Positions 7,380 through 26,143 of a stretch of DNA of 37,197 nucleotides are shown piece after piece. The notes below the pieces were generated by a model, which was not told where the DNA came from, did not search any database, and worked only from the letters and a program-made list of their open reading frames with translations. The stretch is from NCBI GenBank assembly GCA_022486935.1, contig JAKVJO010000011.1, forward strand, positions 1 to 37,197. Direction: 5' to 3'. Source of the stretch: Solobacterium sp. Lineage in GTDB: Bacteria > Bacillota_I > Bacilli_A > Erysipelotrichales > Erysipelotrichaceae. Each line of letters begins with the position of its first letter. Positions within the stretch are counted from its first letter, which is position 1. A program made the position numbers and the translations under genes.

Positions 7380-8654
7380 TTATTTTTCGATCGTGATTGT
7401 ACGCTGGCTCAGATCAAGCTGAGAAACGGCGTTTTTCAGGGTCTCACAGCTGAGTGAACTGATGATCTGATACTCTTCACTCAGTGAGATCCCCTTCATG
7501 CGGCAGTCAAAGAAGGTACGGGCAATATCGGAAGGATGATTGAACAGGTGAAGCATGGTGCCAATCCCGCGGTTGCGCAGCTGGGCAACGGTGCTCTCTT
7601 TGATCTTTGCACTCTGCCATTTTGGAAGCTGGTTTTCAATAAAGCTGCGGAAGCCCTCAGCGTCTTTGGTCCGGTCATAGAACAGGATCATTGCCATGTC
7701 TTTGGAGAAGTCTGATTCATAGCTGAAGTAGGAAGAGATCAGTCCCTGATCCAGCCACTTCTGATAATCCGGATTGACGGAAGAGAACCATGCGTCCATG
7801 GAAGTCTTGACTGCCCAGTCACGCTGTTCACGCTGCTTGTCTGATTCCTGGATGACCGGCAGCTTGATGCCGATGCATACTCTTGGTTCACTGAGATTCA
7901 GATTCACTTCAGACTGCGTACGGATCACCTGCAGCGGTTCTGAAGCAGTATAGCGTTCCAGCTTCACGGCTAGCGCAAATGTCTTGGCGGCCTGGTTCTT
8001 CCGGACCAGATCAATGATCATGGCCGGGTCGGAAGGCGTCACAGCCACCAGCATCATCCGCCCCGGATGGTAGTTCAGCTGATAGCACTGCTCCAGCTGT
8101 GCCTTGGTGATTGCCTTGATGGATGCTTCATCGCCGCAGATATCATAGCGGATCGGATGATTCTGATACATGGAATTGAAGGTCTCAAGATCAAGTCTTG
8201 AAACCGGATCCTGACGGTAGCCGTTCAATTCCTGAATGATGATCGGCTTTTCCTTTTCCACGGAAGCTTCACTCACACTGAAGTCCTGCACAAAATCCAA
8301 CAGCAGATTCAGCGGTGCGGAAATATCCCCGGCCGCTGTCTCAAAGTAACAGGCAGTCTTTTCAAAGCTGGTATAGGCATTGACATTGGCACCAAGTCTG
8401 GAGAATTCCTCCATGACATCGCGCTCATCTGACTCAAATAACTTGTGCTCCAGAAAATGAGCGATCCCGGCCGGAAACTGGTAATGCACGCCGGCCGGAT
8501 CAGTCTGTTCCCTGTCCAGACTTCCGTAAGGTGTCGCAAACATGACATGGCTGGAAGTAAACAGGGGCTTGTGCCAGACAATGACATCCAGACCGTTGGG
8601 AAGTACTTCTTCCATGTAAGTCTCATTCAAAAGACGGTCAGTGATCTGATTCAT
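7380..8654 (-). CDS. ymfH: M16-family zinc metallopeptidase, YmfH-like
   Basis: A 424-residue M16B (pitrilysin-type) peptidase, the catalytic half of a two-protein clamp. The inverted zinc motif HFLEH occurs near residue 66, and the distal glutamate ligand is in EKEKPIIIQELNGY. Two homologous M16 domains are present. The start is the ATG at 8654, preceded by AAGAAGG; an upstream GTG-like start has no ribosome binding site. It overlaps the 3' end of the ymfF-like gene by 17 bp, so the two are translated together. YmfF/YmfH pairs are conserved in Firmicutes near spoIIIE. The substrate is not known from the sequence. Confidence 0.9.
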   Translation of the reverse strand: MNQITDRLLNETYMEEVLPNGLDVIVWHKPLFTSSHVMFATPYGSLDREQTDPAGVHYQFPAGIAHFLEHKLFESDERDVMEEFSRLGANVNAYTSFEKTACYFETAAGDISAPLNLLLDFVQDFSVSEASVEKEKPIIIQELNGYRQDPVSRLDLETFNSMYQNHPIRYDICGDEASIKAITKAQLEQCYQLNYHPGRMMLVAVTPSDPAMIIDLVRKNQAAKTFALAVKLERYTASEPLQVIRTQSEVNLNLSEPRVCIGIKLPVIQESDKQREQRDWAVKTSMDAWFSSVNPDYQKWLDQGLISSYFSYESDFSKDMAMILFYDRTKDAEGFRSFIENQLPKWQSAKIKESTVAQLRNRGIGTMLHLFNHPSDIARTFFDCRMKGISLSEEYQIISSLSCETLKNAVSQLDLSQRTITIEK

Positions 8655-9909
8655 TGACTGCACCTTCTTCCATTTCAAGATGATAGGACACTTTCAGTTC
8701 GACCTCTTTCCAGGCATTCATGATATCTTCCCTGGTCACCTGCTGAAACATCCGGATGTGTTCTTCAATCGTATCATCGCGCTTCAGAAGCACACTGCGG
8801 TAGTCATCCCAGATCAGGGAACGGACTCCGTCTCTGGAAGAACGCCAGGAGTCACAGTACATGGAACAGGTTGTGTTCAGAAGCTGATCATCAAAGTCCC
8901 CTGCCTGCAGGCGTTTCACCTGCTGCTTTGCCAGTGCCTCAGCAGCGGCTTCTTTTCCGCACTCCACATCTGCCGAAATCATCAGGATGCCATCATACGG
9001 TTCATTCTCTGAACCGATGCTGTAGCAGAGTCCTTCTTTTTCACGGATCTCCTGAAACAAGAATGAAGTCGGCAGTCCGCCGAGGATCCCGTTGCCCAGC
9101 ATGAATGCCGGCTGCAGCGGATCAATATAATTGCGGTTGGTATCATATAAGAGAATCAGGGAAGACTGTGTAATCGTACGATGATCAATCTTCTCAACAT
9201 AATCACTGCGATGGGAGCAGTACAGGATATTGCGCTCTGCCGCTCTTGGCGCAAAGTCGAAATATCTGCGGATGATCTTCTCACAGGAAGTCTCATCCAC
9301 ATTGCCCAGCACGAAGATATCCACTGCAGCAGTCTTCAGCAGCTCGGTATAGATGCTATAAACTGTTTCATTCTGCAGTGACTGGATCTCTGCTTCAGTC
9401 GGCAGTCCCTTCTGGCCATAGAAGCCGCCATAGGCCAGTGCTGCCTGTTCCACTGCGTAGTCCGAAGGCTGATCATTGAACAGTCCCCGCAGGATCAGCA
9501 GTTTCTTCCGGCATTCTTCAAACAGTGCATCATCAAATCTGCCGTCTTTGGCCAGCGGGCGGAAGACAAACTTCGACATGAATTCTGCCTGCTGTTCAAA
9601 CAGTTCAGGGTCTTTGACATAGGCCCCATCTACACAGGCACTGGTGAATTCATAGAGATCTGCACAGCCCCGTGATGTGGTGCGTCCGCTGAAGGTTGCC
9701 CCATACAGCATATCTGAGATCCGCTGGGCAGCATCCTTGGTCGGGTATGCCTGGCAGGTATCTGATAACAGATAATCCAGCATCATCCTTGCGGCAAGGT
9801 TGGCACGGTTAAACGGCGTCAGCAGCTCAATGCGGATCGTTACATCCTTGAACTGTTCCGTCCTGTGAATATGAAGATCTACGTTTTGATTGAGAGAAAT
9901 TGTTTTCAT
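8638..9909 (-). CDS. ymfF: M16-family peptidase-like protein, YmfF-like (non-catalytic partner)
   Basis: A 423-residue M16 fold protein. No HxxEH zinc motif is present at the expected place in the N-terminal domain, so this subunit should be catalytically inactive. It keeps the FLFQEIREKEGLCYSIGS segment, equivalent to the R/Y substrate-binding region of the inactive partner in M16B heterodimers. It therefore probably pairs with the YmfH-like protein encoded immediately downstream. The start is set at 9909. A consensus TATAAT (9917-9922) lies only 7 nt upstream and there is no Shine-Dalgarno, so the message may be leaderless; the ATG at 9918 overlaps that box. Confidence 0.88.
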   Translation of the reverse strand: MKTISLNQNVDLHIHRTEQFKDVTIRIELLTPFNRANLAARMMLDYLLSDTCQAYPTKDAAQRISDMLYGATFSGRTTSRGCADLYEFTSACVDGAYVKDPELFEQQAEFMSKFVFRPLAKDGRFDDALFEECRKKLLILRGLFNDQPSDYAVEQAALAYGGFYGQKGLPTEAEIQSLQNETVYSIYTELLKTAAVDIFVLGNVDETSCEKIIRRYFDFAPRAAERNILYCSHRSDYVEKIDHRTITQSSLILLYDTNRNYIDPLQPAFMLGNGILGGLPTSFLFQEIREKEGLCYSIGSENEPYDGILMISADVECGKEAAAEALAKQQVKRLQAGDFDDQLLNTTCSMYCDSWRSSRDGVRSLIWDDYRSVLLKRDDTIEEHIRMFQQVTREDIMNAWKEVELKVSYHLEMEEGAVNESDH

Positions 9910-9916
9910 GGGTCCC

Positions 9917-9922
9917 ATTATA
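9917..9922 (-). promoter_or_regulatory. TATAAT 7 nt upstream of ymfF-like start
   Basis: A perfect -10 box with a weak TGCGCA -35 candidate 17 bp upstream. It would place the transcript start at about the first base of the coding sequence. Confidence 0.5.
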
Positions 9923-11796: not shown

Positions 11797-12693
11797 TTAT
11801 CCTCCGATGTTTACAGAAAGATCATACGCTATTCCATCCTGCTGCAGCTGCTGAAGATCTTCTTCTTTCAGCGGAACATCATACCCATAGGGATATGCTT
11901 TGCACATCCGCATCCATTTGGCCTTGGCCAGGGTGTGATACGGAAGTAAGTCCGCCCGTTTGAATCCCAGTGCACTGACCTTGCGGTAGATTGCGTGGAT
12001 CACTTCAGGATCCTGGTTGAATCCCGGAATGACAGGAATCCGGATGATCACTTTTTCAGGACACATAGATGCCAGGTACTTCAGATTGGTATCAACCGTA
12101 TCCATCTCAGCTCCGGTGACTTCTTTGAGCTTTGCGGCATCGCTGTGCTTCTGGTCAAAGAGATAGAGATCAATCCAGGGCATGGCGTTTTTGAGATACG
12201 CCAGCGGATAATACCCGGCTGTTTCCACTGCGGTAGTTAAGCCAGCCCGCTTTGCCTGTTTCAACAGATCAACGAGGCTGTCATTCTGCAGGAATGGATC
12301 GCCGCCGGAGACGGTCAGCCCGCCGCCGCTGTTATCGTAATAGTCCCTGTCTTTCAGTACTTCCTTTAGAATCTCGCTGGTGCTCATTGAGGTTCCGGCA
12401 AAGCTGATCGCATCATTGAGACAGACATGTTCGCACTTGCGGCAGAGCGTACACTGATCGAAATTCAGATGCCACTGTTCATCAATCGTGATGGCGTTCT
12501 GCGCACATGCCTCTTTACATCTGCCGCATCCTGTACAGCGGGATGCTTCATGCAGGAGGATTGGCCTGGTGCCCCAGGATTCCGGGTTGGCACACCATGG
12601 ACAGTGCATCCCGCAGCCCTTGAAGAATACCGTGGTGCGGATGCCTGGCCCGTCGTGTGTCGCAAAGCGTTCAATGTTGAATACTTCAGTCAT
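11797..12693 (-). CDS. Glycyl radical enzyme activating protein (radical SAM)
   Basis: This activase abstracts a hydrogen from the GRE glycine using S-adenosylmethionine and a 4Fe-4S cluster. The start at 12693 gives 298 residues. The family signature THDGPGIRTTVFFKGC leads into the radical SAM motif CGMHCPWC (CxxxCxxC). An inserted ferredoxin-like domain follows with two further clusters, CTGCGRCKEAC and CTLCRKCEHVC, as in activases of non-PFL glycyl radical enzymes. SGGDPFLQ matches the SAM-binding GGE/GGD region. The ATG overlaps the GRE stop by 8 bases, so the two genes are coupled. It is dedicated to the adjacent GRE by context. Confidence 0.95.
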   Translation of the reverse strand: MTEVFNIERFATHDGPGIRTTVFFKGCGMHCPWCANPESWGTRPILLHEASRCTGCGRCKEACAQNAITIDEQWHLNFDQCTLCRKCEHVCLNDAISFAGTSMSTSEILKEVLKDRDYYDNSGGGLTVSGGDPFLQNDSLVDLLKQAKRAGLTTAVETAGYYPLAYLKNAMPWIDLYLFDQKHSDAAKLKEVTGAEMDTVDTNLKYLASMCPEKVIIRIPVIPGFNQDPEVIHAIYRKVSALGFKRADLLPYHTLAKAKWMRMCKAYPYGYDVPLKEEDLQQLQQDGIAYDLSVNIGG

Positions 12694-14953
12694 ACAGCAT
12701 CCGGGAAAGCAGTTCGTTCTGCACAGTGGTCGGCAGGTCGATGAATCTTGCACTGTAGCCGGCAACTCTCACAATGAGATCCGGATACTTCTCAGGATGG
12801 ACCTGGGCATCTTCCAGCTGGCCGCGGTCGACAACAGTCACCATCAGCTGACAGCCGCCCTTCTTGAAGTAGGTATCAAACATCACTTTTACTTTTTCTT
12901 TGTCCTCGTGCATCATCCGCGGGGTGAAGCGCATGTTCTGCACACTGCCGCCATGGTACTTTGCCCTGAACTTTGACAGCGAGTTGAGGCAGGCAGTCGG
13001 TCCGCTCTTGGAGGCACCGCCCTGGGGATTGTTGGCCGGGTTCATGAAGACACCGCGCAGTCTGCCATCCAGGGAAGCGTCTGTTTCCAGTCCCCAGTCT
13101 GTATTGGTCTGGTTGTTGGAGATGACGATCAGGTAGTAGCCCATATGATGACGGATTCCGGCATCGCGTACGCCCTTGGCAACATATTCAAACAGGTCAT
13201 TGGCAGTATTGTCGCAGCCTTCATCATCATTGCCGTACTTTGCGACATCCAGCAGGTCTTTTCTGAGCTGCTCATATCCTTCAAAGTTCACAAGTGCGGC
13301 ATCGTTTACTTCTTTCAAGGTGTAGAGATGCTTCTCAAATACCACTTTCTTCACTGCATACAGGGCATCTGAGGCATTGATGTTTCCATAGGTCTCATTG
13401 GTTCCGCCGAGAATCTCGACGCCGCCATCCAGCAGTGCCCTGCCTTTTGCAATGCAGTCATCCATCAGGATCGACGCAAACAGGAAGGATACTTCGTGGT
13501 TCATCACTTCATAGGAGTGAACCTGTACTTCAGCAGAGAGTTCAATGTAATAGTCCAACATGCGGTGGTACTGATCCAGCATGTCTTCATAGGTATGGAG
13601 TTCTTCAATCGGCTTCAGTTCAACGACAGCCGCCTTGTTTACCCCATCCATCGGATCAATGCCGCTGTTGAGACTGATCTGCATGATCTTGATCAGGTTC
13701 AGCAGGGTGTTCGGGGTTCCGACACTCTTGCCCTGGATGACAAACTCGCCGCAGCCGAATGGTACATACTGCTCGGCATAGCTGTGGCTGACCTGCATGG
13801 CATATTCCACTGCCGGTACATTGACATCATCGTTATACAGGGTTGGATAGGTCGCTCCTGAGGCGATGCATTCATAAGCCGCATCCATGATATCCTTCGG
13901 GGTATTGTGATTGAAGCGCAGTGTGAACTGCGGTTCGACGTATCTGGTATCTTTGCATACCTTAAGGCAGATCCGGGTAAACAGATCGCCTGCTTCTTCA
14001 TCTTCCCTGCCATAGCCGCCGACAATGATACGTCCGTTGACGGTTGTTCTTCTGTTTTCAATCAGCTTCCAGAGAGACTTCAGAGAGCGGTAAGCTTCTG
14101 CTTCATCAATGAGTCCCCTGTCCATGTCCCGTTTCAGATACGGGCCAAGCACGACATCCATGCGGCCGTAGTTGATACAGCCGGCACACAGTGCATACAG
14201 CCAGAACAGCTGCAGTGCCTGATGGAAGGTATCCGGGCGGTGTTCTTCAATCCAGGCAAGGTCGTTCTTCATCATCTGAAGATCGCTCTTTCTGGACTCT
14301 GATGCAGTTTCATATTCCCTGTCAATCAGGGTGATCTGATATGCAATCACCTGCTTGAACAGGTTCATGGCCTCAATGCCGGAAGTGATAAACGGATTCT
14401 GCGGTTTAGACTGCATCTCTTCAATGATGCCGTTGATGCCAAGTCGCATCAGCTTTTTGTAATCCAGCATCATACCGGAGAGTCTGGCCGTTGCCATCAG
14501 CGGATAATGGCAGTCAATGAAGCGTCCGGTTGTGGTGTCATTCAGCACATCATCGCAATACAGCGCTTTGACATCATGCTCGCTCCAGAAGTCATACAGG
14601 ACATCGATGCGCTTCTTTTCTGCTTCGGTATCCAGCTGAGCCTTCAGTGCTCTCAGCTTATCGAATACACAGTAGTGGCCAACGCCGCCGACAGAAGTGA
14701 CGCAGCCAAAGCCAATCGGCAGAAAGTCCAGCCGGCCGGCAATCAGATCATCTGATTCAATCGAACGGAACAGGGTCGGATAGATGACTTCAAGGCATTT
14801 GACCTCGCGGACTGCCTTATCATCGCAGGAATATTCCTGATAAGTACGGCTATATTCCTCCATGAGTTCAAGCTGCTGTACGGGAGTTTTTTCACTGGGA
14901 AGCTTCTTGGATACTTCTACGTTCTGGACGCCGTCGATGTTGTTTTTCTTCAT
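12686..14953 (-). CDS. Glycyl radical enzyme, pyruvate-formate-lyase-like, unknown substrate
   Basis: A 755-residue oxygen-sensitive enzyme. The C-terminal glycyl loop is VRVAGYSARF with the radical Gly732. The active-site loop reads VPFGCGEFVIQGK, with Cys401 and Glu403. A single Cys followed at +2 by Glu matches the dehydratase, C-N, C-S and C-O lyase classes rather than true pyruvate formate-lyase, which has two adjacent cysteines. In those classes I know the motif as GCVE; a Gly in place of Val is unusual. It is the first gene of the operon, directly after a TTGACA/TATTCT promoter. Co-transcribed genes are the activase, a DeoR regulator and nanE, suggesting a sugar-derived or amino-sugar-linked substrate (inference). 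I cannot assign the reaction. Confidence 0.93.
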   Translation of the reverse strand: MKKNNIDGVQNVEVSKKLPSEKTPVQQLELMEEYSRTYQEYSCDDKAVREVKCLEVIYPTLFRSIESDDLIAGRLDFLPIGFGCVTSVGGVGHYCVFDKLRALKAQLDTEAEKKRIDVLYDFWSEHDVKALYCDDVLNDTTTGRFIDCHYPLMATARLSGMMLDYKKLMRLGINGIIEEMQSKPQNPFITSGIEAMNLFKQVIAYQITLIDREYETASESRKSDLQMMKNDLAWIEEHRPDTFHQALQLFWLYALCAGCINYGRMDVVLGPYLKRDMDRGLIDEAEAYRSLKSLWKLIENRRTTVNGRIIVGGYGREDEEAGDLFTRICLKVCKDTRYVEPQFTLRFNHNTPKDIMDAAYECIASGATYPTLYNDDVNVPAVEYAMQVSHSYAEQYVPFGCGEFVIQGKSVGTPNTLLNLIKIMQISLNSGIDPMDGVNKAAVVELKPIEELHTYEDMLDQYHRMLDYYIELSAEVQVHSYEVMNHEVSFLFASILMDDCIAKGRALLDGGVEILGGTNETYGNINASDALYAVKKVVFEKHLYTLKEVNDAALVNFEGYEQLRKDLLDVAKYGNDDEGCDNTANDLFEYVAKGVRDAGIRHHMGYYLIVISNNQTNTDWGLETDASLDGRLRGVFMNPANNPQGGASKSGPTACLNSLSKFRAKYHGGSVQNMRFTPRMMHEDKEKVKVMFDTYFKKGGCQLMVTVVDRGQLEDAQVHPEKYPDLIVRVAGYSARFIDLPTTVQNELLSRMLYD

Positions 14954-21361: not shown

Positions 21362-22369
21362 TCATTTTTGTCGCGCCTGGTGATGCTGGGAAGATGTTTC
21401 TTCTTTGAGCAGCTGTTCTGCCTGGTTGATCTCTGTTTCCAGATCCACGATGGTTTCATGCGAAATATGGGACTGCAGGTCCGGGAATGCCTTCAGGATA
21501 CGGTGCAGACCAGATGCTTTTCGCACTGCATCACTGCGCAGTTCTTTCTGCATTTCCTGAAGACGCTTGCGGGAGTCGTCCCGCTTCATCTGCAGGCTGA
21601 CACCGGCATCGATCATATTCTCTGCAAGATCCTGCTTTTTGTACTGGGCATCGATCTTCACTGCCCGGGCCATGTCCTGCAGATTTTCTCTGGCAAGACT
21701 TGCCTGGACAGCAGATTCACCGATCTTTTCACTGGCTTTGTAGGCAGTTGTACCGATATTCTCAGTCAGGTGGTCAGATACCGTACGCAGTGATTTCTGC
21801 AGACGGTCGATCTCCTTCAGTTTGCGGTTGAGCCCGACGATAACGGATACTGTCACCACCAGATCAATGAAGTAGATGATATACAGCACCAGCATGATGC
21901 GCCAGCCGATTGTTTCTGACAGGTGCATGCCTGATACCTGGTTGATGGATGGGTAGATGACGCCGATCACTGCCACACAGGCAACGCCCCATAGCAGGCT
22001 GAATCTGAGACAGATATAGCCGTGCAGGTTATACGGTTCATGGGAATAATCCCACCACCGCATATGAAAGAGTTTATCCAGAATCCAGCCGGCAAACAGT
22101 TCCACAGCACTGCAGAAGATCATACCGGCAAAAAACAGCAGAACTACATTGGTATGCTCAGCCGAGGTTGATGGACTGATTGTCTTCAGCAGCATCAACA
22201 GTCCAACCACGCCAAACCCGTATACCGGGCAGACCGGGCCGTTGAGAAAGCCGCGGTTGACGATCTTTCCCAGCTTGGCCGCATGGAATACCACTTCCAC
22301 GACCCAGCCGAGAAAGGAATAGATCAGAAAATCGAGGCAGATTTCATAATAGGTTAAACCAAAGATCAT
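21362..22369 (-). CDS. CmpB-like putative transporter permease family membrane protein
   Basis: A 335-residue protein. The N-terminal half has about five transmembrane helices and motifs of the ABC_trans_CmpB (DUF1113) family: FLGWVVEVVFHA, NRGFLNGPVCPVYGFG and WWDYSHEPYNLHGYICLRFSLLWG. The C-terminal half (about 170-335) is a long charged, probably coiled-coil, cytoplasmic region. Despite the family name, no ATPase subunit is nearby and the transport role is unproven. The ATG at 22369 is chosen over a GTG at 22378 because AAGGAG lies 8 nt before it. It starts 26 bp after the MscS-like gene and is probably co-transcribed with it, hinting at a shared envelope or osmotic role. Confidence 0.82.
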   Translation of the reverse strand: MIFGLTYYEICLDFLIYSFLGWVVEVVFHAAKLGKIVNRGFLNGPVCPVYGFGVVGLLMLLKTISPSTSAEHTNVVLLFFAGMIFCSAVELFAGWILDKLFHMRWWDYSHEPYNLHGYICLRFSLLWGVACVAVIGVIYPSINQVSGMHLSETIGWRIMLVLYIIYFIDLVVTVSVIVGLNRKLKEIDRLQKSLRTVSDHLTENIGTTAYKASEKIGESAVQASLARENLQDMARAVKIDAQYKKQDLAENMIDAGVSLQMKRDDSRKRLQEMQKELRSDAVRKASGLHRILKAFPDLQSHISHETIVDLETEINQAEQLLKEETSSQHHQARQK

Positions 22370-22395: not shown

Positions 22396-25300
22396 TCAGT
22401 CTTTCTGGATGCCTTTGGACTGTTCTTTCTGGTCACTGACAAAGCGGTCAGCAGCGGCTTTTTCGTGTCTGGTTGCCTGGGCCTGTACCGCGGCCGGCTG
22501 GTTGACTACCACCTGCGGGAATGGAATGTTGATGTGATAGCGATCAAACAGCAGCAGGATCTCACGGTTCAGATCTCTTGTCACCTGGACACGGTCTGAT
22601 TCTGCACACTGGGCAAGGATTCTCAGATTGACACTGGAATCGCCAAGTTCCGTGACGCCCTTGTAGAATGGGCCGGTCACAATTGCCGGAATCTTCTTCT
22701 TGATATTCGGCAGTTCATTCTCCAGGACGGATTCCACATGTTCCAGTGATTCGCCATAGTCGATGCCGACATCCACCATGGCATAGGAGTACTGCTTGGT
22801 CATGTTGATGACACTGGAGATCGCTGCGTTGTTGAAGATCCGGATATCATTGCCGGCACTGCGCACCTTGGTGGTACGGATGCCGATCTCCACCACTTCA
22901 CCGCGCCAGCCGTCAATGGTGACAATATCGCCGACCCTGAATGATCCCTCAAATACTATCGAGATGCCGGCCAGGATATCGCTGATCAGGCTCTGGGCAC
23001 CAAGGCCGATGACCAGTGACAGGATACCGGCTGAGGCAAGCAGTGTTCCGGCATCGAGGCCAAACGCATTCAGGCAGTAGAAGATCCCGCCGATGACTGC
23101 TGCATATTTCAAGAAGCTGTTCAACAGATGGCCGACCGTTTCACTGCGGGAGCCGAACTGACTGAGGATGTAGATAATTGCCATGCGGATCATCCAGGTA
23201 ATGACAATGATATCCGTCATGGAGAAGATACAGTATGTAATGGAAAAGAGATTGAATCCCTTCTCCCACTTCCGGTTGATGATGTAGTAGATGATGGTAT
23301 TGGACATGGCCGAACTGCGGAACAGCTGCAGATACACTGCCAGTGCCACTGCCGCAGTCATCAGGATCACGGCTGTCACCGACCAGAGTTTCTGTTCCGG
23401 GGTCTTTTCATCCCAGGTGATCGTCTCACCATACCGGCTGATTGCACTCTGGGTCATTTTCCTGGTGCCGCTGAAGCGCAGGCGTTTGAAAAACGGTGCT
23501 CCCTTGGCTTCGGTATCCGGCTTCCTGCAGGCCTGCTGCTGTGAGAGTTCTGCCTCTTCTTCCAGCCGTTCCTGGCGGGGATTTCTGGAGATGGTCAGAA
23601 GACAGAAGATGATCATGATGATGATAAAGCTGATCAGGGCCACCTGCAGGGTGGAAGGCATCCGGTTTGCGTAGATCACCGACAGCGGGATTGCCGCATA
23701 GATATAATCTGTGTCATTGTAGAGGAATCCATTGACGAAATAAGATACGCCATTGATGGTCTGGAAGCCGGAATAGTTATCCTTGAATGCCGCATCGCTG
23801 ATGCCAAGGGAAGAAGCCGACTTTTGAAGCATGCTGTTCTGCGGGTAGGCAGAGATCTCATGGCTTTCGGCATTGACGGCAAACAGGTAGCCGCCCTGGC
23901 CGATGTTGATGCCTTCCAGTGTCGTATTCAATCCGGTTGTCTGCAGTCTTGTTTCAAGACGCGAAGAGTCTACACCGATCTGCACCATGCCGTTGGCATC
24001 CTGACGCTGGACACCGGCAAACTGGACATAGTCGCCAAGATCGTCATACTCCGCATCCTGTACATAAGAAAGTGCAGTGCCGTTGACGACTGCCCAGAAT
24101 GGATAGGACTGGGCAGAGGGATCTGTACTCAGGGAAAAATTGCGGTAGTTATCGCTCATGGCTGTCACGGTACCGGTCTCATCAAATACATAGATGGACT
24201 TCAGATGGGCACAGGACGCAAGATCCGCCGGTGTCTGATGATTCACCATGGAAGGATCCAGCTTCAGCGTATAGGCCAGATGCTGGCCCAGCAGTGTATA
24301 GTCCTGCTTGAATTCTTTCTGGATGGATTCCGTATCCTTCTCATCACTTTCAAGTATCGTCTCCGCAGCGCTGAGACGGCTGTCGGACAGCGTTCCCTGT
24401 CTGGACAGCGGGCCGAGTGTTTCCAGATAGAATGTCAGGATCACTTCTGCGCACAGTCCGATGATGATCACTGCCCGGATCTTGGAACCGACGGCCGGAT
24501 CAAAGTAGAAATCAGAGAACAGATGGACGTAATGATCTTCTTTCTCCGGATGGGCTGCGAGATCGCGGTGGATGAAATCAGAATAGGCAATCAGCAGTGC
24601 AATGATCACTGCAAAGATCAACAGGATCAGGCGGATTGTCACCTGCCCCTTTTCCTTCAGTTCTGACATGGACTTGGCCGCAATCAGCATCGTTCTTCCG
24701 GTCTGCTTGGCAGTCACATAGTATTCCGTGCCATTCAGTTCAGTCACGTCAGAATAGCCGTTGGTCAGCAGTTCCATATCGTAGCCGGAATCACTGGCAG
24801 AAGTGCCGACAAGTGCACTTTGATCCGAATAGGTAATCGTTCCGTCATCCAGATTGATGGAGGTAATCGTACCGGCATTGCCGACATTCAGCGTGCTGAG
24901 TACATGATCCAGGGAGTAATTACTGCTGAGCTGTCTTGCCTCGGCAGAATAGTCGCGGCAATAGAGCAGTGTTCTTCCATCATTCAGCTTCACGGTATAG
25001 TACCAAGTATCATCAATGGTAACCGGAGTCAGATCATTCATCAGCCTGTTCAGTTCTTCTGGATGATCATCAAGGCTCATGTCATTGGCCAGCCGTACAC
25101 TGCCGTCACTGTCCAGCAGTACATAGCATTTCAGCCGCCACTCAGAGGCCAGCCCTTCCAGCTGTGCTTCGCCGTCTTCATGACTGTTGAGATAATAGGC
25201 AATCGTATTGCCCTTGGCCGAAGCGGAGGAATCAAATGAGTCTAGATTCTCACTGCTCATATCACTGGCAGCTTCCACTTTCTGCACAACCAGATTCAGT

Positions 25301-25440
25301 TCTGTTTCATTGTCACTTGCCTGCTGGGCAATGTTATTGGTCAGACTGATCCGGTTCAGTGCTGACTGCAGGATGAATACACCGACAGCCAGAATGATCG
25401 CTTCAATCAGAATATGACGAAACCGTTTCTTGCGCCCCAT
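22396..25440 (-). CDS. MscS-family mechanosensitive channel fused to two extracytoplasmic sensor-like regions
   Basis: A 1014-residue protein, far longer than E. coli MscS (about 290). The C-terminal third is a canonical MscS module: pore helix and beta domain GILSLVIGLGAQSLISDILA (805-824), FEGSFRVGDIVTIDGWRGEV (830-849), IRTTKVRS and NLR near the end. Ahead of it are two similar units, each a transmembrane helix, an extracytoplasmic region and another helix: residues 10-29 / 30-265 / 269-287 and 322-342 / 343-597 / 600-618. Both resemble Cache-type sensors (for example YPFWAVVNG and GQGGYLFAVN in the second). AGGGGGA precedes the ATG at 25440. Gating by a bound ligand as well as tension is an inference. 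Confidence 0.88.
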   Translation of the reverse strand: MGRKKRFRHILIEAIILAVGVFILQSALNRISLTNNIAQQASDNETELNLVVQKVEAASDMSSENLDSFDSSASAKGNTIAYYLNSHEDGEAQLEGLASEWRLKCYVLLDSDGSVRLANDMSLDDHPEELNRLMNDLTPVTIDDTWYYTVKLNDGRTLLYCRDYSAEARQLSSNYSLDHVLSTLNVGNAGTITSINLDDGTITYSDQSALVGTSASDSGYDMELLTNGYSDVTELNGTEYYVTAKQTGRTMLIAAKSMSELKEKGQVTIRLILLIFAVIIALLIAYSDFIHRDLAAHPEKEDHYVHLFSDFYFDPAVGSKIRAVIIIGLCAEVILTFYLETLGPLSRQGTLSDSRLSAAETILESDEKDTESIQKEFKQDYTLLGQHLAYTLKLDPSMVNHQTPADLASCAHLKSIYVFDETGTVTAMSDNYRNFSLSTDPSAQSYPFWAVVNGTALSYVQDAEYDDLGDYVQFAGVQRQDANGMVQIGVDSSRLETRLQTTGLNTTLEGINIGQGGYLFAVNAESHEISAYPQNSMLQKSASSLGISDAAFKDNYSGFQTINGVSYFVNGFLYNDTDYIYAAIPLSVIYANRMPSTLQVALISFIIIMIIFCLLTISRNPRQERLEEEAELSQQQACRKPDTEAKGAPFFKRLRFSGTRKMTQSAISRYGETITWDEKTPEQKLWSVTAVILMTAAVALAVYLQLFRSSAMSNTIIYYIINRKWEKGFNLFSITYCIFSMTDIIVITWMIRMAIIYILSQFGSRSETVGHLLNSFLKYAAVIGGIFYCLNAFGLDAGTLLASAGILSLVIGLGAQSLISDILAGISIVFEGSFRVGDIVTIDGWRGEVVEIGIRTTKVRSAGNDIRIFNNAAISSVINMTKQYSYAMVDVGIDYGESLEHVESVLENELPNIKKKIPAIVTGPFYKGVTELGDSSVNLRILAQCAESDRVQVTRDLNREILLLFDRYHINIPFPQVVVNQPAAVQAQATRHEKAAADRFVSDQKEQSKGIQKD

Positions 25441-25500: not shown

Positions 25501-25530
25501 GAAAAAAAGAATTCCGGATCATTCCGGAAC
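25501..25530 (-). terminator. Terminator of the DUF4203-like gene
   Basis: TTCCGGA and TCCGGAA (25512-25518 and 25523-25529), then a T7 tract on the minus strand, right after the stop at 25541. Confidence 0.9.
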
Positions 25531-25540
25531 TCTGTCTGAT

Positions 25541-26143
25541 TCACTTCATCCGTTTGTCGTTCTTGAACTGGAACCAGATGCCCAGTGCACCGACCGCAAT
25601 GCCGAGGATCATCAGCGCTGTGGAGCTGGTCACACCGAGAATGCCGCAGACCGCCTGAACGGTACCCTGCCCGCCGGCAAGACCCGTCGATACGATAATC
25701 AGCGGTTTCATGAACTTTACGGAAAGAATGGCACATGCCAGTCCGAAGACCAGGGCAACGATCACCAGTGTGGTATCGTTGATCGAGGTTTCGCCAAGCA
25801 CCGCAAACAGGGTAAAGAATACGGATACGCCAACCAGCAGGAACACGCCTACCTTGTACAGTACATAGGCAATCACTGCAACGGCTGCGCCAATCACGAT
25901 CGCAACAATCAGTTTGACTGGATCTTCAATCTGGGTATAGGCACCAAGCAGTGCATAGCTGCCGATCCCGCCCAGCAAAAAGCCGCAGGCAGTAATCGCA
26001 AACCGGTAGAAACGGTAGCCGAAGAAGCAGAGGAACAGGTTCCAGATCGTATTGAAGGCAAAGCCGCCGATGCCGACACTGGCAAGTCTGTTCTTGGCAT
26101 CTGTCAGCCAGCCTGTAAATGTAGTCTCAATCGTTGTAATCAT
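25541..26143 (-). CDS. DUF4203/TMEM198-like polytopic membrane protein
   Basis: A 200-residue, glycine-rich protein with about seven hydrophobic segments, including FLLGGIGSYALLGA and VKLIVAIVIGAAVAVIAYVLYKVGVFLLVGVS. The repeated small-residue helices and overall layout match the DUF4203 (TMEM198-like) family, whose bacterial function is unknown. GGGAGAT precedes the ATG at 26143. It is bounded by terminators on both sides and so is monocistronic. Confidence 0.75.
   Translation of the reverse strand: MITTIETTFTGWLTDAKNRLASVGIGGFAFNTIWNLFLCFFGYRFYRFAITACGFLLGGIGSYALLGAYTQIEDPVKLIVAIVIGAAVAVIAYVLYKVGVFLLVGVSVFFTLFAVLGETSINDTTLVIVALVFGLACAILSVKFMKPLIIVSTGLAGGQGTVQAVCGILGVTSSTALMILGIAVGALGIWFQFKNDKRMK

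Follow-up and report, generated by a model that had tools for sequence, protein, structure and literature searches.

Gene organization of the locus

The window, i.e., the whole stretch of 37,197 nucleotides that was analysed, carries on its minus strand a long gene predicted to encode an MscS-type channel preceded by two extracellular sensor-like modules, and a gene for a CmpB-like membrane protein follows it in the same direction. The features of the locus are as follows:

22396..25440, minus strand: Cache-Cache-MscS channel gene, 1014 aa (open frame, ATG start, MscS matches)
24655..25359, minus strand: unit 1, predicted extracellular dCache module, residues ~28-262 (AlphaFold models and fold matches; Pfam Cache matches in relatives, not in the window copy)
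23662..24414, minus strand: unit 2, predicted extracellular dCache module, residues ~343-593 (fold matches of an AlphaFold model; 8 of 27 rows match Pfam dCache_1; in the window copy, only dCache_2, below the cut-off)
23386..23580, minus strand: predicted cytoplasmic linker, residues 621-685 (between hydropathy peaks; K+R-rich)
23314..23385, minus strand: predicted extra membrane helix, residues 686-709, ahead of the MscS core (centre of the hydropathy peak at 697)
22501..23253, minus strand: MscS core and cytoplasmic domain, residues ~730-980 (Pfam, NCBIfam and PDB matches)
22951..23055, minus strand: pore helix (MscS TM3), residues ~796-830 (lowest entropy of the compared regions, 0.78; helix assigned after the MscS family)
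21362..22369, minus strand: gene for a CmpB-like membrane protein, co-directional neighbour of the channel gene (Pfam ABC_trans_CmpB match; likely start; synteny)
25508..25533, minus strand: terminator-like hairpin separating the channel gene from the TM7S3/TM198-like gene (a stem of 11 pairs, then a T run; this matches the consensus but is no proof)

A chance open reading frame was ruled out for the channel gene by a full-length relative of 56% identity in another genome of the genus and by further relatives in Clostridium transplantifaecale (locus L031, 36% identical) and in an Eubacteriales MAG (L032, 43% identical). A GGGGGA motif sits a few bases 5′ of the ATG, and the terminator-like hairpin separates the gene from that of a TM7S3/TM198-like membrane protein of 200 residues directly upstream (window positions 25541-26143). 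Based on the hairpin and the GGGGGA motif, the channel gene may start its own transcript, which may run on into the CmpB-like gene; the likely ATG of the latter (22369) lies 26 bases past the channel stop codon, and the stretch separating them showed no terminator-like site on that strand. Upstream of the channel gene, no sequence matched a promoter, and promoter-like sites in the region were no commoner than in shuffles. The identity of the downstream neighbour as CmpB-like, given in the initial annotation, was borne out by its match to Pfam ABC_trans_CmpB (E 1.2e-51).

MscS core and predicted membrane topology

Judging from homology over the pore helix and upper vestibule (~90 residues), the predicted channel protein is a member of the MscS superfamily. 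Searches with the whole protein matched Pfam MS_channel_2nd at residues 818-881 (E 3.2e-14, above the cut-off) and the PDB MscS structure 3udc at residues 767-982 (E 8.9e-36); the other two MscS Pfam models, which neighbour MS_channel_2nd, were below their own cut-offs, and the NCBIfam MscS model reached E 9.1e-43, yet stayed below its curated cut-off. Residues 767-982 align with the pore helix, beta domain and cytoplasmic domain of MscS channels (PDB 3udc/3t9n, E. coli MscS); those proteins, however, have neither the two Cache modules nor the five membrane helices that precede the MscS core here.

Hydropathy peaks lie near residues 7-27, 266-286, 320-340, 599-619, 688-708 and 732-760, and inside 792-831. 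Combined with the MscS fold, they fit eight membrane helices. In this topology the N-terminus and the linker (621-685) would be inside and the two large loops outside, and the same reasoning would place the Cache modules outside. The regions predicted to be outside are acidic (net -22 and -16), and the linker contains 13 K+R among the 66 residues of 621-686, with four K/R among the first six residues of the protein. The short inside loop 291-318 has a net charge of -4 rather than a positive one and gives no help to the eight-helix model. The initial annotation had described an MscS channel joined to two extracytoplasmic units flanked by helices, and this architecture holds, the extracytoplasmic placement being a predicted one: both units are flanked by hydropathy peaks, and their limits are placed here at residues ~28-262 and 343-593, against the earlier 30-265 and 343-597. 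That description is corrected by one more membrane helix, at ~688-708, before the MscS core.

Two modules of predicted dCache fold

Both units are predicted to have the dCache fold, i.e., a long N-terminal helix and two PAS-like alpha/beta subdomains. No Pfam Cache domain was above its cut-off in the window protein, the best match being dCache_2 (E 0.049, 13.2 bits versus a cut-off of 26.5), and the units are therefore filed as dCache-fold modules rather than under a Pfam family. Pfam matches of relatives and structural models provided the link to dCache. Among the relatives, unit 2 matched dCache_1 in 8 of 27 rows (best E 2.7e-6), and unit 1, for which divergent shorter proteins were excluded and 18 of the 27 rows kept, matched dCache_2 in eight, dCache_1 in eight and sCache_3_2 in seven of the 18 (best E 4.5e-5, 2.7e-4 and 3.1e-4, respectively). 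Profile searches against PDB sequences gave nothing significant for either unit, with myosin VI at E 0.8 for unit 2, and tectonin (best, E 0.18) and the chemoreceptor TlpB (E 0.21) for unit 1.

The AlphaFold model of residues 1-625, built on a four-row alignment, had a mean pLDDT of 69, reaching ~80 through much of the Cache region and falling below 50 near residues 299-323 and 592-625. When it was used as a Foldseek query, dCache and other extracellular sensor domains made up nearly all of the best 50 rows, the first being McpH, Mlp24, CtaA and PctA. In VIA-align, where Z may be inflated by long helices and many fold matches had a high rmsd, unit 1 matched the tandem Cache domain of PscC (Z 17.1, rmsd 4.3, 137 aligned) and unit 2 matched Mlp24 (Z 15.7, rmsd 6.7, 223 aligned), and the high full-length rmsd makes the relative placement of the helix and halves uncertain. 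Unit 1 modelled alone, from three rows, gave a mean pLDDT of 76 and again had PscC as its best match (Z 15.7, rmsd 2.1, 117 aligned). Comparing both regions with dCache domains, as had been proposed with the initial annotation, thus gave matches to solved dCache domains for both (best Z 15.7-17.1), and not a fold unrelated to any sensor. The Cache-like motifs noted earlier in the second unit stand for that unit but not as a property of it alone, since both units model as dCache.

Units 1 and 2 are homologous and hence arose by duplication: their profiles aligned over 273 columns in hhalign (99.8% probability, E 2.7e-29), and the unit 2 profile picked up unit 1 within the window protein (E 1.3e-14). 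The duplication was not visible in a BLAST comparison of the protein with itself and was revealed by the profiles. Across 62 aligned proteins including that of the window, a sample dominated by one clade, the pore helix was the most conserved region compared (mean column entropy 0.78), and the membrane-distal and proximal halves had entropies of 1.84 and 1.99 in unit 2 and of 2.48 and 2.10 in unit 1. Based on its lower entropy, unit 2 looks like the common sensor and unit 1 like a more variable module.

Distribution and diversity of the fusion family

Cache-Cache-MscS channels are common within the taxonomic family of the window; in the broader samples of the class and phylum, they are rare. 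When the window protein was searched at E <= 0.001, 57 of the genus's 60 genomes gave a match, and many of the matching frames had the size of a stand-alone MscS. At E <= 1e-60, matches occurred at the family level in 63 of 272 genomes and 7 of 59 genera, and those listed were open frames of >800 aa, except two (198 and 626 aa). The same threshold gave matches in 64 of the 395 genomes of the class sample; among those listed, long frames occurred only in the window, G447 and G453, and the others were <=468 aa, indicating a pore close to that of stand-alone channels. With the unit 2 profile, 5 of the 395 genomes of the class sample (two in shorter ORFs) and 3 of the 295 genomes of the phylum sample were matched at E <= 1e-6, and at E <= 0.001 in nine genomes every match lay in an open frame of at least 935 aa, which is fusion size.

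In a tree of 60 proteins, made by a quick method with a midpoint root, having some long branches and omitting the N-terminally incomplete L087 and L092, the window protein pairs with that of G002 and adjoins a larger channel group; the L031 protein falls just outside these, and a divergent group of ~920-990 residues lies further out. Divergent shorter fusions were found as tandem neighbours, 10-15 bases apart, in two loci (L052:1167-7758 and L053:6025-11889), with a short MscS gene after them in L052, which suggests possible mixed-subunit channels. The otherwise open channel frame of L032 contains a single in-frame TAG (L032:3938-3940) in the distal half of unit 2, which could reflect assembly error, decay or readthrough.

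Solute-binding protein genes beside relatives

We read 62 other loci, picked non-randomly from listed places, and 61 fusion ORFs of 898-1300 aa, not counting truncated or split genes (such as L032, L035 and L103) or the window itself. Directly downstream of the channel, 24 of the 61 fusion ORFs have a gene for an NMT1/THI5-type solute-binding protein of ~350-360 residues, as detected by BLAST, and a family scan of three of these downstream proteins assigned all of them to this type. By called starts, 15 of the 24 pairs overlap by 4 bases, two overlap by 8 and five are 1-17 bases apart, and the remaining two need a later start, giving spacings of -4 and 14. A lipoprotein-signal pattern is present in 23 of the 24 proteins; that of L102 precedes the likely start and was not counted. 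The 24 paired channels form one clade (SH-aLRT 100) spanning five genera.

One NMT1-type protein was searched in 59 genomes, which were hand-picked and included ones already known to hold it. It was present in 26 and lay beside a Cache-MscS gene in all 26 by coordinates, with the pair split over two contigs in G036. No second copy was found in these 26 genomes at E <= 1e-10, and no homologue was matched in the other 33, including the window's own (62% complete). Within 120 bases 3′ of the binding-protein gene, 12 of the 24 loci have a same-strand ORF of >100 aa, and no ABC-transporter part was found among the seven of these 12 that were scanned. The sole PDB match of the NMT1-type protein at E <= 0.001 was the formylaminopyrimidine-binding protein (E 1.5e-4), and its sole NCBIfam match was the sulfonate-binding SsuA family, below the cut-off.

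A second pairing, independent in the tree, is found in C. transplantifaecale (L031), where the gene for an SBP_bac_3 protein (E 6.3e-26) lies upstream of the channel gene with an 8-base overlap by called starts. This protein resembles amino-acid-binding proteins, below the cut-offs. The genes further upstream (L031:2377-5605) match BCCT transporter and histidine ammonia-lyase-type models, also below cut-offs, and are a possible hint, across a gap of 545 bases, to the ligand. An SBP_bac_3 partner for the window-type channel was also considered and rejected: its closest homologues in the L032 genome (43%) and the window genome (31%) lie in apparently ordinary ABC-transporter operons, as judged by eye from translations, and those in G002 and G009 are weak only.

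No binding-protein gene adjoins the window copy, and with the search used neither binding-protein type was detected beside 36 of the 61 fusion ORFs, which a contig end or another family could explain in some cases. Ten scanned neighbours of fusions lacking the NMT1-type protein belong to unrelated families or to no family; lipoprotein-like neighbours in L110 (382 aa) and L112 (371 aa) had no family match and may be other binding proteins. Other genes beside the binding proteins include that of a protein of 1123 residues that combines Reg_prop repeats with a SpoIIE phosphatase domain, overlapping the preceding binding-protein gene by 4 bases (L045:12001-15372), and, in two genera, that of a PrsW-type membrane protease at most 21 bases after the binding-protein gene (L086:11180-11899 and L099:10674-11396).

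Proposed gating mechanism and alternatives

We consider it somewhat probable that the window protein is a channel of the MscS superfamily in which an extracellular small molecule, acting via the two tandem dCache modules, sets the opening or shifts the tension threshold. Each subunit would span the membrane eight times and expose both Cache modules on the outside. One of the modules would be engaged by a ligand or, in some relatives, by a solute-binding lipoprotein carrying its ligand, and the resulting change could travel from the helices beneath the modules through the cytoplasmic linker and then the extra helix to the first MscS helices. The pore would be biased open or closed, and solute release would then track the chemical surroundings. 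Sequence or models show the domain layout, the dCache fold of either unit, the duplication behind them, the MscS core and, in relatives only, the tight gene pairing with binding proteins; we infer the topology, ligand binding, binding-protein contact, conduction, the direction of gating and the number of subunits.

Several lines of evidence argue for ligand gating. The models of both units have the dCache fold and resemble dCache domains that bind ligands, and relatives match Pfam Cache families; the MscS core is intact by family match, with its pore helix the most conserved region compared. In relatives, the binding-protein gene is paired with the channel (24 of the 61 fusion ORFs, all 26 genomes holding it and the independent pair in L031), and the scanned genes following it (seven of 12) lack ABC-transporter parts. 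The sensor-fused MscS channel of the initial annotation is thereby supported beyond its original basis, both units being dCache by model and relatives being encoded with solute-binding proteins. On the other hand, the missing binding-protein neighbour of the window copy and of the 36 fusion ORFs speaks against ligand gating, as do the window copy's lack of an above-cut-off Pfam Cache match and of a significant dCache match among PDB sequences. We suggest only tentatively that an extracellular lipoprotein hands a captured solute to the tandem dCache modules and that these gate the MscS pore directly, converting a chemical signal from outside into a flux of solutes or ions. This would be a new class of bacterial chemosensory ion channel; the window copy would then bind its ligand directly or use a binding protein encoded elsewhere.

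Alternatively, the protein could be mainly a mechanical osmotic valve, its Cache modules binding no ligand and acting as spacers or cell-wall contacts that adjust the mechanics. A pore of the MscS superfamily, close to the stand-alone MscS channels of the class, would suit such a valve, as would the 36 fusion ORFs without the two binding-protein types. The exclusive pairing of binding protein and channel in the 26 genomes and the second, independent pairing in L031 argue against it, and so does the conservation pattern: the membrane-distal half carries the ligand in many dCache sensors, and in unit 2 this half is the more conserved one. We regard a mainly mechanical role as rather unlikely. 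The modules might also sense general osmolyte, ion or pH conditions, instead of one specific ligand, and so set the valve threshold; this would agree with the acidic extracellular parts and with the first two same-strand genes upstream of the L031 binding protein, with their below-cut-off matches to BCCT (betaine-type) and histidine ammonia-lyase-type models. However, NMT1-type and SBP_bac_3-type binding proteins usually bind defined small molecules, and the BCCT link concerns one locus, at 545 bases from the binding-protein gene, making this explanation improbable.

Some MscS subfamilies have no observed mechanosensitivity, and a response to other stimuli has been suggested for them, as stated in an excerpt of PMC4560390. 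A non-conducting receptor, with the MscS part serving as an oligomeric scaffold that relays the signal to another protein, would accord with such subfamilies and is nevertheless very improbable, because, among the regions compared, conservation is highest in the pore helix and beta domain, and a conserved cytoplasmic partner gene was not seen. Least credible is the CmpB-like protein as a working partner subunit, an idea encouraged by its co-directional gene 26 bases downstream with no same-strand terminator-like site between, and rejected by synteny, as a homologue occurs in 1 of the 62 other loci, namely G009, which holds a 72%-identical channel fragment and where a 256-residue opposite-strand ORF intervenes; the conserved partnership to which the initial annotation had pointed is thus not upheld.

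Comparison with known systems

The ligand-tuned MscS channel favoured here would share its extracellular fold, by model, with dCache chemoreceptors and sensor kinases (PscC, Mlp24, PctA and Tlp3), whose output, however, is signalling and not a pore, no channel being present in those structures. In bCNG channels, the cyclic-nucleotide domain is located inside the cell. MscS cores extended by further membrane helices, by domains that bind ligands or by large loops outside the cell have already been recognised, according to an excerpt of PMC4560390, and the window channel resembles the bCNG and MscK/MscM subfamilies in being an MscS core plus added domains; its added part would be a tandem dCache region outside the cell, whereas that of bCNG channels is the cyclic-nucleotide domain (same excerpt).

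Binding proteins can work with membrane sensors, as exemplified in excerpts of two papers by NspS-MbaA, in which a binding protein acts with a membrane sensor (PMC8967002), and by ArtI, which is required for arginine sensing by the dCache protein STM1987 (PMC8846402). The gene pairs of the relatives resemble these systems in combining a binding protein with a membrane sensor, but the window copy has no such gene next to it, and the outputs of NspS-MbaA and ArtI-STM1987 are c-di-GMP enzymes. The Cache survey PMC4822843, as stated in an excerpt, defines its ion-channel class by VWA_N and VGCC_alpha2; Cache is associated with a channel there too, but in an auxiliary subunit of an unrelated channel and unfused to the pore. 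A search of open-licence papers gave, among the matches listed, nothing on a Cache-MscS fusion or on an MscS channel paired with a binding protein.

The family offers a well-studied extracellular sensor fold fused to a pore, and its relatives add a binding protein amenable to purification and ligand screening, so that the question of what gates an MscS relative becomes directly testable. Such a channel would be a bacterial parallel of the Cache-bearing subunit in animal calcium channels, a valve set by pressure and perhaps also by chemistry.

Other genes in the window

Elsewhere in the window, a pyruvate formate-lyase-like glycyl-radical enzyme is encoded beside a radical-SAM protein, probably its activase (11797-14953); the enzyme is under the cut-off of every named NCBIfam enzyme among the matches listed. 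Positions 7380-9918 hold two adjacent M16-type peptidase genes, one corresponding to the M16 domain and the other to the inactive C-terminal domain.
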